A DNA stretch of 64,000 nucleotides from Streptomyces sp. NBC_01283 (lineage in GTDB: Bacteria > Actinomycetota > Actinomycetes > Streptomycetales > Streptomycetaceae), in NCBI RefSeq assembly GCF_041435335.1, contig NZ_CP108430.1, forward strand, positions 8,962,001 through 9,026,000, read 5' to 3'. The position numbers were made by a program, and so were the translations under genes. Position 1 is the first letter of the stretch. Each line of letters begins with the position of its first letter. The notes under the pieces are model-generated. The model was not told the origin of the DNA and did no database searches. It worked only from the letters and a program-made list of their open reading frames with translations. Positions 789-5,897 of this stretch are shown here, in pieces.

Positions 789-1376
789 GGTTCCTCCCCC
801 CGGGAGGCACCGCCCCCCGACCCTGTTCCTCCCCCGGGAGGCCCCCGCCCCCCGCGCCACGCGTCGTTCCCCGAGAGGTCCCGCCCCCAGCGGATGACAT
901 CCCGGTCATTGCAGCGCTACTTGAACACCCCACCCAGGCGGCAGCGGACGCGCACGTCCTGCCGGACCTTCGAGATGCACGGGAACCCGTCGAACCTTGG
1001 ATGTTCCCCAACACCCAAAGCCCTCTGCCGGGCCCCAAAAAATCGACCACCCCCACGTCTGGCGCCGGGACGCTATCGCTGGCTTTCCACGGTGCCGGAC
1101 CTATAGATCATCTTTTGTCGCCTCGTGTCCAGATGTGAAGCACGGTCAATCTAGACCATTGGCGCCGCTCTGAAGAGGGGATGTGTGAGATTTGTGCTCA
1201 AGCTTTGAAGCTTGGTCAACCGGCCGGTGCCGCCCGCGGGTGTCGTGGCGACGAGGGCGTGCCGTGTGACCTGTGACGACGTGATTCCGCCGGGTCACCG
1301 GAGCCGCTAACCCGCAGGCCATCGAGGGGAGTTGGCAAAGATCTGGCTCAAATGTTTGGCTGTAACTTTGGCGGGA
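789..1376. other. Intergenic region, no gene seen
   Basis: It lies between the start of the sugar transferase and the stop of the first P450, so it probably holds the transferase promoter and the end of the P450 operon. At 790-842 a CCTCCC...GGGAGG palindrome occurs twice, each copy followed by GGAGGAAC on the minus strand; the inner copy supplies the ribosome site. Two near-identical 14-mers, TGAAGCACGGTCAA (1136-1149) and TGAAGCTTGGTCAA (1206-1219), lie 70 bp apart and could be regulator sites. No open frame here has convincing coding character. Confidence 0.5.
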
Positions 1377-2651
1377 TCAGGTGCCGTGAGGTACGTGCTG
1401 TCCGAGGGGCCCGAGGCCGGACGGACGGCGCAGGGTGAGTGCGCCGTGAAAGTCCTGAGGAACAGGCGTGAAGCGAAACGCCATTGTGATATGTGCAGGG
1501 TCGGGCACGGTGAGGTGGTAACGGGTACTCATCAGGCGGCACAGCGCCATCAGTTGGAACGTGCCCAGCGCCGCGCCGACGCACTTCTTGGGCGTCCAGC
1601 CGAAGGGCACGTACGAGTTCCGGCCGACCGGGCCGTGCGGAGCGCCGGCCAGGAAGCGGTCGGGATCGAAGGTGTCCGCGTCCTTCCAGAACCGATGGTC
1701 GCGATGGATCATGTGCGGGCTCATGAGGTAGCCCCGCCCCGCTTCGAGGGTGATGCCGCCCACGTCGAATGCCTGTCGAGCCTGCCGGACGAGGAGCAGC
1801 GGCGGGCTCCACATGCGCAGTGTCTCCTTGACGAAGCGGTGGGTGAGGGGCGCGGCCTTCGTGGGCGCCTCCAGGAACGAGGCCGTGTCCCCGTCCTCCA
1901 GTTCGGCGGTGACCCGGCGGGCCCACTCCGGCTGCCGGACCCACTCGTACAGCACGGCGGCCGCCGCCGAGCCGGGAGGGCCGCCGATCGCCGTGAGCAC
2001 GGTGGTGACCACGTTCAGGGCGCGGTCCATGCCGAGTTGGGGCAGCAGGTCGACGAAGGGGTCGGCCAGATCGCACTCGCGGGCGCGGCGGCCCGCGGCG
2101 CGAGCGCGCAGCACCCTGCGGACGACGAGCCCGGCCCGTGCCTGCACGGCGGCGAAATGCAGCCGGTGGGCCGGGCCGTCACCGGGGGAGCGGTCGATCA
2201 GGCGCAGGAGCTTCTGGTCCAGGTCGCGCACGATCCAGTCGGCTTCGCGGGGAGTGAGGCCCGACAGGGCGCACGGCAGCAGGGACCGTATGGCGCTGTC
2301 CTGGGCGAGGTTGACCAGATCGACGTGCTCGCCGAGGCGGGCGTCCATGACCCGCCGCATACGGTCCGTCAGCGCCGCCCGGTTCGAGACGTCGGCCAGC
2401 CGGTGCAACTGGGCCAGCCACGCCGTGCGCACTTTCGCCCAGGGCACCACGGCACTGCGCCGGCCCCGCAGGAGGTCGATGCCGCGGTCGGGCATCACGA
2501 AACCCTGCCAGTTCGTCCTGCTGATCCGCTGCGCCGCCTCCGGCTCGAACACGGCCAGCAGGTCGTCGTTGACCCAGAAGACCCCGTCCTCGGCCGCGCT
2601 GCGCCTGCGCAGGTCGTGCAGGAAGTCGTCGGGATGCTCCGGTGTGGTCAC
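1377..2651 (-). CDS. Cytochrome P450, probable RiPP-modifying enzyme (second P450 of operon)
   Basis: 424 residues, the normal length of a soluble bacterial P450. The ExxR pair is in KETLRMW (Glu276, Arg279) and the heme-thiolate loop is FGWTPKKCVG with Cys357. In that loop the usual second glycine is Thr and the usual His/Arg is Lys. The I-helix region around AIGGPPGSAAA shows no acid-Thr pair. The start is GTG at 2651, preceded by GAAGGGGATTTC. It is the last gene of an operon: P450, 31-residue peptide, this gene, with an 83-nt gap that contains a strong hairpin. With no other substrate-like gene nearby, I infer that it oxidises the peptide, for example by making C-C, C-N or C-O bonds between aromatic side chains. 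P450 identity is firm; the substrate is inferred. Confidence 0.88.
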   Translation of the reverse strand: MTTPEHPDDFLHDLRRRSAAEDGVFWVNDDLLAVFEPEAAQRISRTNWQGFVMPDRGIDLLRGRRSAVVPWAKVRTAWLAQLHRLADVSNRAALTDRMRRVMDARLGEHVDLVNLAQDSAIRSLLPCALSGLTPREADWIVRDLDQKLLRLIDRSPGDGPAHRLHFAAVQARAGLVVRRVLRARAAGRRARECDLADPFVDLLPQLGMDRALNVVTTVLTAIGGPPGSAAAAVLYEWVRQPEWARRVTAELEDGDTASFLEAPTKAAPLTHRFVKETLRMWSPPLLLVRQARQAFDVGGITLEAGRGYLMSPHMIHRDHRFWKDADTFDPDRFLAGAPHGPVGRNSYVPFGWTPKKCVGAALGTFQLMALCRLMSTRYHLTVPDPAHITMAFRFTPVPQDFHGALTLRRPSGLGPLGQHVPHGT

Positions 2652-2682
2652 GAAATCCCCTTCACCTGCCGGGAGTTACCGA

Positions 2683-2725
2683 CGAGGGCGGGAGGCCGCC
2701 CGGCACGGACGGCCTCCCGCCCTCG
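2683..2725 (-). terminator. Hairpin between peptide gene and second P450 (attenuator)
   Basis: Perfect inverted repeat with 16-bp arms (CGAGGGCGGGAGGCCG at 2683-2698 and its complement at 2710-2725) and an 11-nt loop. On the minus strand it begins 10 nt after the peptide stop codon. There is no U-run. Such a structure between a RiPP precursor and a modifying enzyme commonly gives partial termination or protects the 3' end, so that more peptide than enzyme is made. That role is inferred. Confidence 0.7.
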
Positions 2726-2734
2726 CATGGGCGA

Positions 2735-2830
2735 TCAGATGTGGTGGTAGAGGTACCAGAAGTTGTGCAGCCCGCCGTAGGCGGAGCGGATGTTGAGAGC
2801 GGACAGCGCGGAGCGGTAGAGCTTGCGCAT
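2735..2830 (-). CDS. Candidate RiPP precursor peptide, 31 residues
   Basis: A short gene between two P450 genes. The ATG at 2830 follows GGGAGGTGAACCTC, a strong ribosome site overlapping the stop of the upstream P450; only 5 nt separate the two genes. The peptide starts MRKLYRSALSALNIRSAYGG, a basic helix-prone leader, and ends in LHNFWYLYHHI. The last ten residues hold Phe, Trp, two Tyr and three His, the type of side chain that P450s cross-link in biarylitides, cittilins and atropopeptides. The tail does not match the core motifs I remember for those groups (MRYYH, YIYY, AWYIWY). No peptidase or transporter is nearby, as is common in P450-RiPP loci. Translation is well supported by signals and context; modification and leader boundary (perhaps near the Gly-Gly) are inferred. 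Confidence 0.75.
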   Translation of the reverse strand: MRKLYRSALSALNIRSAYGGLHNFWYLYHHI

Positions 2831-2835
2831 GAGGT

Positions 2836-4041
2836 TCACCTCCCTTCCCCGGCGGGGACGCGGGTGCCGAGCTCCGCGGTGAAGCGTGGCGGAGCCAGCG
2901 CGGGGCCGAGCTGGGGAGCGATCCCCTCGGCGGTGACCGACAGATGCCGGCCGTTCGTGATGATCCGGACGAGGTCCTCCAGCAGCTCCAGCGCCACGGC
3001 GGCGCCGGTGCAGCTGTGTGGCCCGTACCCGAAGGGCAGGAACGCGGGTTCGGGCGGCGGGCTTTCCCACCGGCCGGGCAGATACGCGTGGGGCCGGTCC
3101 CACTGCCCGGGATTGCGGTGTACGAGGAGGGTGCAGACGTCCACCGCGTCGCCTGCCCCCACCGGCACACCGGCGAGTTCGTGCGCCACGCGCGGAGTAC
3201 GGGTGAAGAGCCAGGCGACCGGCCACAGCCGCAGCGCCTCCCGCACGACCCACTGCGGGGCGTGCTCCGCGGGCCGCTGGTGGGTTCCGGCCAGGTAGAC
3301 CGCCCAGCCCAGCGCGAAGCCGACCGAGCCGACCGTGGCGAACAGGAACGAGAGGTAGACCTCGGCCAGCGTTCCCGGATCCGTCGTACGGCCGCCACCC
3401 GCGACGACGACGTCCAGTAGGTCGCGCGGCTCGCCCGGCCCGCCGGTGCGGCGTGCTGTTATCTCCTCGGCCAGCGCGCGCATCACGGCACGCCGGAAGT
3501 GCCGTCGCGACAGCGCCGAGTGCCGTTGGCGGGCCCCGGCCAGCACCGCACGATGAACGACGCCCACGACCGCGTCCCGCAGCGACGCCGGGGCCGCGCG
3601 GCACAGCAGCACGTCCTCCAGGTGCTCGAACACGAGCAGGTTCCCGGCATCCGGCCAGTGACTCTTCGGCGCGAGCCTGCGTTCGACGAGCGCGGCCAAC
3701 TCGTGCCTGCGGGAAGCCAGTTGCCGCTGGAGCAGGACGCGCGCCGCGCGGCCGATCTCGATCTGCGCGGGCCGGGGGCCGAAGACCCCGTGCCGGGTGT
3801 GGAAGAAGTCGGACGTCTCGACGTACCACTGCCGCCGGTTGCCCATCACCTCACGCGCCGCTTCGGCCCCCGTCACCCACACCCGGCCCGAATCCGCGCG
3901 GCACACGTCACGCCCGTCGCCGTACTTCTCGATCAGACGCGCCAGCGGGTCCGGCCGGTCGGCCGGAGGGCGGTGCGTGCCTGCCTGAGAGGGGCGGCGC
4001 GGACGCGAAAGTCGGTTGTGCATGCCGCGCGACGGTTTCAT
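2836..4041 (-). CDS. Cytochrome P450, probable RiPP-modifying enzyme (first P450 of operon)
   Basis: 401 residues. ExxR is in REALRLWP (Glu268, Arg271), and the heme loop FGYGPHSCTG (Cys344) fits the classical FGxGxxxCxG pattern. The I-helix segment FATVGSVGFALG lacks the usual acid-Thr pair, as in the partner P450, which may point to radical coupling rather than hydroxylation (inference). The ATG at 4041 follows CGAGGAGCC. The gene leads the operon and its TGA sits 5 nt before the peptide start, so the two are likely translationally coupled. The two P450s differ clearly in sequence, suggesting two separate oxidations. No ferredoxin or reductase is encoded here, so general cellular redox partners would be needed. 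Confidence 0.88.
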   Translation of the reverse strand: MKPSRGMHNRLSRPRRPSQAGTHRPPADRPDPLARLIEKYGDGRDVCRADSGRVWVTGAEAAREVMGNRRQWYVETSDFFHTRHGVFGPRPAQIEIGRAARVLLQRQLASRRHELAALVERRLAPKSHWPDAGNLLVFEHLEDVLLCRAAPASLRDAVVGVVHRAVLAGARQRHSALSRRHFRRAVMRALAEEITARRTGGPGEPRDLLDVVVAGGGRTTDPGTLAEVYLSFLFATVGSVGFALGWAVYLAGTHQRPAEHAPQWVVREALRLWPVAWLFTRTPRVAHELAGVPVGAGDAVDVCTLLVHRNPGQWDRPHAYLPGRWESPPPEPAFLPFGYGPHSCTGAAVALELLEDLVRIITNGRHLSVTAEGIAPQLGPALAPPRFTAELGTRVPAGEGR

Positions 4042-4535
4042 GGCTCCTCGCGGTACGGCTTCGGGGCCCGGGTCGGGTGCGTGGAGTCGGGCACGTGGAG
4101 TCGAATACGTGGAGGAGCCGCCGAGCCCGTCGGTTCACGGACTGTATGAGGGGTCCCCCGCTCGTGCACTGCTCGTGGTGACAGCCAGTCAGCTTGCCCC
4201 TGGTACGGGACCCGTGTCACGCCCCCGGCAGCCTCGCACTGAGCCCGGTGCGGGCCGGGTGCGCCGATGCGCCACGACGCACCGGACCGAGCTCCGCCCA
4301 CCCGGGCTGCCTCTTGACCTGCGGTGGGCCGCCATTCCAGCGGTGCGCGCGACGTGATGACCCCCTCTCCACGTCCCGGGTGGGGGATGACACGCGGTAA
4401 GCCTGTTGTGAGAGGGGTGTAGCTCCATCCGGCACAGGCCTGGGGGCCTGGCCCCCGTATCGCGAGCGGCGCCGGGTAGACGGTCTCCGTACTTGACCTC
4501 ATTCCCGGCGGACCCGCGGACCGGAAGGCAACCGA
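4042..4535. other. Intergenic region, promoter area of the P450-peptide operon
   Basis: 494 bp without a credible gene on either strand. On the minus strand it is the only upstream region of the P450-peptide operon and so should carry its promoter. The notable structure is the 14-bp tandem repeat at 4070-4111. I see no clear -35/-10 pair. Confidence 0.5.
4070..4111 (-). repeat. Three 14-bp direct repeats upstream of P450-peptide operon
   Basis: Three back-to-back 14-bp units on the plus strand: GGGTCGGGTGCGTG, GAGTCGGGCACGTG and GAGTCGAATACGTG. They share G-G/A-GTCG and end in CGTG. They lie about 30 bp upstream of the first P450 start. Short direct repeats with a fixed period are typical of activator sites, though the SARP type usually has 11- or 22-bp spacing. 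A regulatory role is inferred. Confidence 0.45.
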
Positions 4536-5132
4536 TCAGGCGCGGCGGGCGCGCCAGAGCCACACTGCCGTACCGGCCAGCAGGGCGAACATCGCCAGGT
4601 TGGCCAGAAGGGCCGGGGTGTCGCCCGACGGGCCGCCGCTGGACAGGTTCCAGGCGGCGATGACCGCGGTCGGCAGGACGGCGGTGACCAGTACGCCGGT
4701 GGTCTTCTGGACGGTGGTCCAGTGCACCGAGGTGCAGAGGAGGACCGCGCCGGTGATGCGGAACAGGATGGCGAACACCGGCCCGGGGAGGTCGGGGAAG
4801 ACCATCACGAAGGGCAGCGAGAGGGTGAGCATGAGGAGCGGGACCAGGGGGTGCACCTTGCCGCGCCGGGCGGGCGCGGCGGCACCGCTCCGGGCCGAGA
4901 CCCCGGCGGCCCCGGTCCCCGCCTCGGCCAGCGCCGTTGCCGCGATCGTGCGGGGGTCACCCAGCTCCGCGAGGATCTCGCCGACCGTGGCGTCGGGGCG
5001 TTCGGTGCGCGTCACCTCGATGTGTTCCGTGAGGTCCGCGAGGAGTTCCTGGCGGCGGTCGGCGGGGAGTGCGGAGGCCTCGCGACCGACGGCGGAGAGG
5101 TAGTCACGTATGGGATCGGCAGAGGTCTTCAT
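4536..5132 (-). CDS. HAAS-domain membrane protein partnered with PadR
   Basis: 198 residues. The first 70 (YLSAVGREASALPADRRQELLADL...ILAELGDPRTIA) match the helical HAAS/DUF1700-type domain that often sits beside PadR regulators. Residues about 95-195 contain four hydrophobic segments, ending in LLAGTAVWLWRARRA. Its ATG overlaps the PadR stop by 4 bp (ATGA), so the two are co-translated. Such proteins are thought to sense envelope or small-molecule signals and affect the PadR partner; no catalytic residues are apparent. Confidence 0.8.
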   Translation of the reverse strand: MKTSADPIRDYLSAVGREASALPADRRQELLADLTEHIEVTRTERPDATVGEILAELGDPRTIAATALAEAGTGAAGVSARSGAAAPARRGKVHPLVPLLMLTLSLPFVMVFPDLPGPVFAILFRITGAVLLCTSVHWTTVQKTTGVLVTAVLPTAVIAAWNLSSGGPSGDTPALLANLAMFALLAGTAVWLWRARRA

Positions 5133-5503
5133 GCGAGGTCTCCGGTGGGGGGATGAGGGGTGGTCAGGAAGGTGTCGACGGCGTTGCGGAAGCCGGGCCA
5201 GACACGGGTGAACTCATCGAGCGCGGCATGGCCGCTGTCGGTGAGCGCGTAGTAGCGGCGGGGTGGTCCGGAGGCGGATTCCTGCCAGGTGGTGGTGACC
5301 AGGTCGTCGCGGCGGAGCCGGGACAGCAGCGGGTAGACCGTGCCCTGGCTGGTGGCCAGGGCGCCGGAGTCCTCGAGGGCATGGAGGAGTTCCACGCCGT
5401 ACCGGGGGCGGTCCCGCATCAGGGCGAGCACGCAGTACTCCAGGACGCCCTTGCGTAGCTGGGCGGCTGCCCGGGCCTGCTTGGTCGAATCACCTGGTTC
5501 CAT
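5129..5503 (-). CDS. PadR-family transcriptional regulator
   Basis: 124 residues, a typical short PadR. The winged helix runs through LEYCVLALMRDRPRYGVELL, GTVYPLLSRLRRDDLV and RRYYALTDSGHAALDEF. I chose the ATG at 5503 (MEPGDSTKQ); an open frame continues upstream but with non-coding composition. There is no good ribosome site, and TATCTTGCATCGC lies just before the ATG, so a leaderless or autoregulated transcript is possible; this resembles the ATGCAAGATACCT motif I associate with actinobacterial PadR operators (memory, unchecked). It forms an operon with the HAAS gene. A role for the P450-peptide operon further downstream is conceivable but unsupported. Confidence 0.85.
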   Translation of the reverse strand: MEPGDSTKQARAAAQLRKGVLEYCVLALMRDRPRYGVELLHALEDSGALATSQGTVYPLLSRLRRDDLVTTTWQESASGPPRRYYALTDSGHAALDEFTRVWPGFRNAVDTFLTTPHPPTGDLA

Positions 5504-5582
5504 GCGATGCAAGATACCTGGTGGGACAAGTGGATGGGAAGGGGGGGAGGGTTGTAGGGGTCTACCTGGCGTCGCTAGGCGT

Positions 5583-5897
5583 TCAGGAGGCGGGGCGGGC
5601 CTGGGCAGGGCACTCGTCATCGATCGCGTGGATCGCGTTTCCCTCCGCGTCGCTGAGGTGGAAGCAGTTGCCGTTGGCCCACACCGTGACCGAATCGGGC
5701 CGATGGTCGACCTCGAACGGCTCGTCCGCACGCAAGGTCCCGGGCCAGGAACCATCCCCCGCAGGCGAGTGGGTCACCACGACGCAGGTCTCCTTCGGCA
5801 GGATCGAGTGGATCTCCGCCCACGGCTCCACGGTCAGTTCGAGCTGCGCGTCACCGCCGTTGCTGAGCACCAGCCGCGCTGTCCCCCCGGCGAACAT
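5583..5897 (-). CDS. Small acidic hypothetical protein
   Basis: 104 residues from the ATG at 5897, preceded by AAGGAGGGTGGAC, an excellent ribosome site. The sequence (ARLVLSNGGDAQLELTVEPW, then FEVDHRPDSVTVWANGNCFHL) alternates hydrophobic and polar residues and looks all-beta, with no signal peptide or membrane segment. I do not recognise the family. It stands alone, 79 bp upstream of PadR on the same strand. Confidence 0.7.
   Translation of the reverse strand: MFAGGTARLVLSNGGDAQLELTVEPWAEIHSILPKETCVVVTHSPAGDGSWPGTLRADEPFEVDHRPDSVTVWANGNCFHLSDAEGNAIHAIDDECPAQARPAS

Follow-up and report, generated by a model that had tools for sequence, protein, structure and literature searches.

The window, a 64,000-nucleotide stretch of the Streptomyces sp. 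NBC_01283 genome, carries a genuine RiPP cassette of three genes that is well conserved. It encodes a precursor of 31 amino acids between two dissimilar cytochrome P450 genes, and this precursor adds a new member to the hyalucidin family. We consider it very probable that family membership and the action of both P450s on the aromatic tail of the peptide hold together, a joint claim that does not extend to each individual bond.

The hyalucidin-type cassette and its family

All three genes are on the minus strand. The first, P450-A (2836..4041; 401 amino acids), and the third, P450-B (1377..2651; 424 amino acids, with a GTG start), match Pfam PF00067 with 66 and 81 bits, respectively (cut-off for P450 calls, 22.8 bits). 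Between them lies the precursor peptide gene (2735..2830, minus strand), which encodes MRKLYRSALSALNIRSAYGGLHNFWYLYHHI. The arrangement described in the first-pass annotation was confirmed: this 31-codon gene begins 5 nt past P450-A (2831-2835) and ends 83 nt ahead of P450-B (2652-2734), all on a single strand, translation of 2830..2735 gives the C-terminus HNFWYLYHHI, and the two P450s are indeed dissimilar, with 29% identity.

The strong Shine–Dalgarno sequence of the peptide gene, GGGAGGTGA (2836..2844, minus strand), includes the TGA stop codon of P450-A, and the same overlap occurs in 13 compared loci; from this we infer that P450-A and the peptide gene are translationally coupled. A distant locus, in genome G1141, has no such overlap, and its P450-A stop codon lies 18 nt ahead of the peptide start. 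Because the peptide frame is open far upstream within P450-A (ORF 3829..2735, 364 codons), the internal start of the peptide could escape gene callers. A scan of positions 900-4600 returned no promoter-like sites (shuffle mean, 0.3) and one terminator-like site (shuffle mean, 1.0).

The peptide had been put forward as a candidate new RiPP family. That proposal is wrong, as the precursor passes the curated cut-off of the NCBIfam model NF053510, ‘hyalucidin A family RiPP precursor’ (56.4 versus 35 bits), which is the single NCBIfam model that it matches. Yin et al. (Angew. Chem. Int. Ed. 2026, e22698), as cited in PMC13417212, present hyalucidin A in their title as a benzofuranoindoline peptide made via tandem P450 catalysis, and the two P450 genes of the cassette fit this wording. 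The citing paper was the only full text in our literature search to contain the name ‘hyalucidin’. The window adds a diverged member to this recently described family, whose first product, to judge from that citation, was published in 2026; the new member has the longest spacer among the compared loci (six residues before WYLYHHI, versus three or five in the 12 others).

Two other classes of P450-modified peptides were considered and rejected. Biarylitide precursors have five residues, as described in the cited text of PMC13417212, whereas the precursor here has 31. ApyO, the aminopyruvatide P450 associated with a YLY motif, is the best NCBIfam match of both cassette P450s, and YLY also occurs in the tail of our peptide; however, neither P450 comes close to the ApyO equivalog cut-off (68 and 66.6 versus 525 bits). 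A literature search on two-P450 RiPPs found nothing further.

Conservation of the peptide with both P450s

We searched for the peptide with the family model in overlapping draws of same-genus, same-family and phylum genomes, each of which counts the genome of the window. The model matched at eight places in 7 of the 392 same-genus genomes, in 6 of the 249 same-family genomes and in one of the 296 phylum genomes, which together make 13 loci in 12 genomes; the model had no match in 14 control genomes (0/14). Including the G1141 locus, the total is 14 loci in 13 genomes, with that of the window among them. One genome, G276, has two hyalucidin cassettes (L020 and L021) that represent both sub-types, with 30- and 28-amino-acid precursors.

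The order P450-A, peptide, P450-B on one strand is kept in 14/14 loci, more than chance would produce. A lack of conservation next to P450 pairs had been named as grounds for abandoning the original reading, and the comparison found the opposite, with all three genes present at every locus. The proposal that two P450s modify the peptide is thus well supported by conservation, given that both flank it in each case.

Searches that started from the P450s gave a concordant picture. The eight P450-B matches of at least 560 bits in the 392 same-genus genomes adjoin the eight copies of the peptide, and both sets occupy one and the same group of 7 genomes. The six P450-A matches of at least 409 bits in the 249 same-family genomes likewise come from exactly those six genomes that encode the peptide. 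At an E value of 1e-40, P450-B was found among 296 class genomes in the genome of the window only, with the best first-look candidates scored. These protein searches scored the best first-look candidates per genome (four for the genus and seven for the family), such that weaker copies may be missed. Two weak P450-B matches, distant relatives (28% identity) from G145 and G125, have no such peptide among the nearby short ORFs that follow a Shine–Dalgarno sequence. An exact short-pattern search of genome contigs with the P450-A of the window returned three distant P450s only, which reflects a limit of the method, because P450-A orthologues exist. Plasmid searches likewise returned only distant P450s, with less than 60% identity.

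In the flanks, no ORF family outside the cassette is common to more than 3 of 13 loci, and the three genes are therefore not accompanied by a conserved protease, transporter or redox partner. Upstream of P450-A, the window encodes a HAAS-domain protein and a PadR-like regulator (4536-5755, minus strand). These are probably unrelated to the cassette, because they belong to no ORF family shared by at least three loci.

The alignment of precursors separates three parts of the peptide. Column counts across 13 loci define a conserved leader part (residues 1-18; 2777..2830, minus strand) with the pattern M..L[YF]....S.[LM]N.R..Y, in which M1, L4, S10, N13, R15 and Y18 are common to all 13. The leader is followed by a variable spacer, GGLHNF in the window (residues 19-24; 2759..2776, minus strand), which reaches six residues here only. 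Because this spacer is longer than those of the 12 other loci, the product of the window may differ from theirs. The aromatic tail, WYLYHHI (residues 25-31; 2738..2758, minus strand), is the presumed site of cross-linking. Its W-Y-[LV]-Y-H segment is invariant in 14/14 loci, and the second His and the final Ile are kept in 13 of the 14. Mean pairwise identity across 13 loci is 96% for the tail, compared with 66% for the leader, 67% for P450-A and 73% for P450-B. Tail codons are also invariant across the 13 loci, except for the codon for Leu or Val, and synonymous change is therefore unable to show selection on the tail. The comparison thus narrows the key residues to W-Y-[LV]-Y-H and links both P450s to the peptide.

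The G1141 locus emerged when P450-A was used to search 119 genomes from the order; matches at an E value of 1e-20 were obtained in 9 of them. This genome belongs to another taxonomic family of the same order and carries a diverged hyalucidin-type cassette (L109:7150-10064), with P450s that are approximately 45-46% identical to those of the window. Its peptide, MRKIAHATQRALSIRTRGYSRYFNWYVYHNM, scores 36.4 bits against NF053510, barely above the cut-off of 35. The precursor likewise has 31 amino acids, with five residues after the Tyr and before the tail, and departs from the leader consensus at L4, S10 and N13. To judge from its tail, WYVYHNM, the Ile and the second of the two His residues may be dispensable, which is useful as a guide to mutagenesis.

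Candidate chemistry of the aromatic tail

Both P450s form well-defined groups of orthologues. P450-A has 12 aligned orthologues with 55-61% identity, and P450-B has 12 with 62-69% identity, each of which adjoins the peptide. In a midpoint-rooted tree the two are separate clades (support 1.0, 13/13 each). As a control for the tree and for motifs we used 20 other P450s of the window’s genome, drawn from 30 P450 loci (41 Pfam matches); four end-duplicates, the two P450s of the window and one other were left out, and three more were excluded by ORF length. Several P450 matches in this genome are doubled, with identical scores, near both ends of the main contig; the two copies face opposite ways, which is what long terminal inverted repeats would produce.

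The I-helix of P450s usually carries an acid–alcohol pair that serves proton delivery in oxygen activation. P450-A has the heme motif FGYGPHSCTG and an I-helix, FATVGS, without the usual acid; P450-B has the heme motif FGWTPKKCVG and an I-helix, AIGGPP, with neither acid nor alcohol. Across 13 loci the I-helix patterns are FA[TSAV][VA]GS in P450-A and AI[GA]GPP in P450-B. The acid is missing in 13/13 P450-A and 13/13 P450-B proteins and present in 19 of the 20 other P450s of the genome, the single exception having Leu at this position. The G1141 P450s show the same patterns, as judged by eye. The loss of the acid would fit a radical coupling of aromatic side chains, which is suggestive but not proof. 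The closest solved chain to P450-A, PDB 9ulw_A (231.7 bits over residues 41-393), is named only ‘Cytochrome P450’ and has the same I-helix pattern, FAT.GS; its PDB code is unnamed in the full-text literature searched. Predicted structures of P450-A and P450-B, built from five-row alignments, were unusable (mean pLDDT, 38.3 and 37.4).

We propose that residues 1 to about 18, which form the leader, mediate docking of the peptide to the P450s; these enzymes would generate radicals on Trp25, Tyr26 or Tyr28 with no insertion of oxygen. Radical coupling of Trp25 and Tyr28 by one P450 would close the fused benzofuranoindoline. We somewhat favour this coupling on the basis of the WxxY spacing, by analogy with the WxxW and WxxY spacing noted for atropopeptide substrates in the cited text of PMC12352619. 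The other P450 would carry out a second oxidation within the WYLY segment, and a housekeeping protease could then trim off the leader. Laurentirubin B, as described in PMC11450843, offers a RiPP precedent for two P450s that act in sequence; that P450-A acts first here is a guess with even chances. We infer the core, the bonds and the order of the enzymes from analogy and from the wording of the title of Yin et al. Both Trp–Tyr and His–Tyr cross-links had been suggested at the outset. The former fits the benzofuranoindoline of that title. A His–Tyr link would be possible for the first His, which is present in 14/14 loci, and finds less favour for the second, which is Asn in one locus.

In a variant of this scheme, the two P450s would install two independent cross-links, for example Trp25–Tyr28 and one that involves Tyr26 or His29, and this longer-spacer member would give a ring pattern unlike that of hyalucidin A. 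Tyr26 and His29 are also invariant in 14/14 loci, spacer length differs among loci, and the RiPP P450 ApyO is described in PMC13192836 as changing its bond type upon small changes of substrate. However, the tail that would bear the bonds is identical (WYLYHHI) in 11 of 13 compared loci, including that of the window, and we regard this variant as possible but the less probable outcome.

It is highly unlikely that the cassette is instead that of an atropopeptide of the tryptorubin type with an extra P450, as for laurentirubin B. Atropopeptides share with the hyalucidin-type cassette a short precursor, P450-made cross-links, an aromatic residue at +3 of a Trp and sometimes a second P450, the precedent for which is the lau cluster (PMC11450843). 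One of the criteria for atropopeptides is a Trp at core position 2; here a Trp with Tyr at +3 occurs in 14/14 precursors, and whether this Trp would occupy position 2 depends on where the core begins. However, none of the six variants of the KSLK-type leader motif listed for atropopeptides in the cited text of PMC11450843 is found in any hyalucidin-type precursor (0/14), and thus by its authors’ definition the peptide is not an atropopeptide; furthermore, the precursor belongs to the separate curated family NF053510. Even less credible is an action of the P450s on an unrelated small molecule, with the short ORF as an incidental neighbour: P450s are common in the genome of the window (some of the 41 Pfam matches are pieces or end-duplicates of one gene), but the conservation of the ORF with both P450s in 14/14 loci, where no outside gene recurs in more than 3 of 13, for practical purposes refutes this reading.

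Single-P450 relatives of P450-A

Matches to P450-A occur in 17 of the 249 same-family genomes, 11 of which have a second-tier match (32-37% identity). In 10 of these 11 genomes, a short gene lies 3′ of the second-tier P450 (loci L084-L093), with products such as MIAAIRRILRNKPASLWDPPVWL, MAATMRRIFTNKPARRWYWY and MMAVIRRILTNTPPLIWNPKDPW. Among the ten, G426 differs in that its P450 frame stops short and the small gene follows after 163 nt; the eleventh genome, G482, has no short gene of this kind after its P450. The peptides have 20-25 amino acids with at least two Trp residues near the end, and 7 of 10 fit the pattern [ILMV]RR[IV][LF].N.P[AP]..W. With P450-A and P450-B as queries, no second P450 was found near these loci except for one approximately 5 kb away in G395, although an unlike P450 could escape such a search.

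Seven of the sister peptides had no NCBIfam match when tested alongside a hyalucidin-type control that did match, and a KSLK-type (atropopeptide) motif was found in 0/10. This precursor type is apparently unlisted, as far as the openly readable literature on P450-RiPPs shows. The tree joins 12 sister P450s, including those of G482 and of Embleya sp. NBC_00888, with the 13 P450-A proteins (support 0.97). On this basis, we tentatively suggest that P450-A belongs to a wider peptide-modifying clade, that the cassette may have arisen when a one-P450 system captured P450-B and that the sister group may constitute a separate RiPP class, a scenario we hold to be somewhat doubtful as a whole. The single-P450 relatives nonetheless provide a lead towards another class of peptides. 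A short gene of this kind also occurs in Embleya sp. NBC_00888 (L038:6950-7200), the one record followed up from the plasmid searches.
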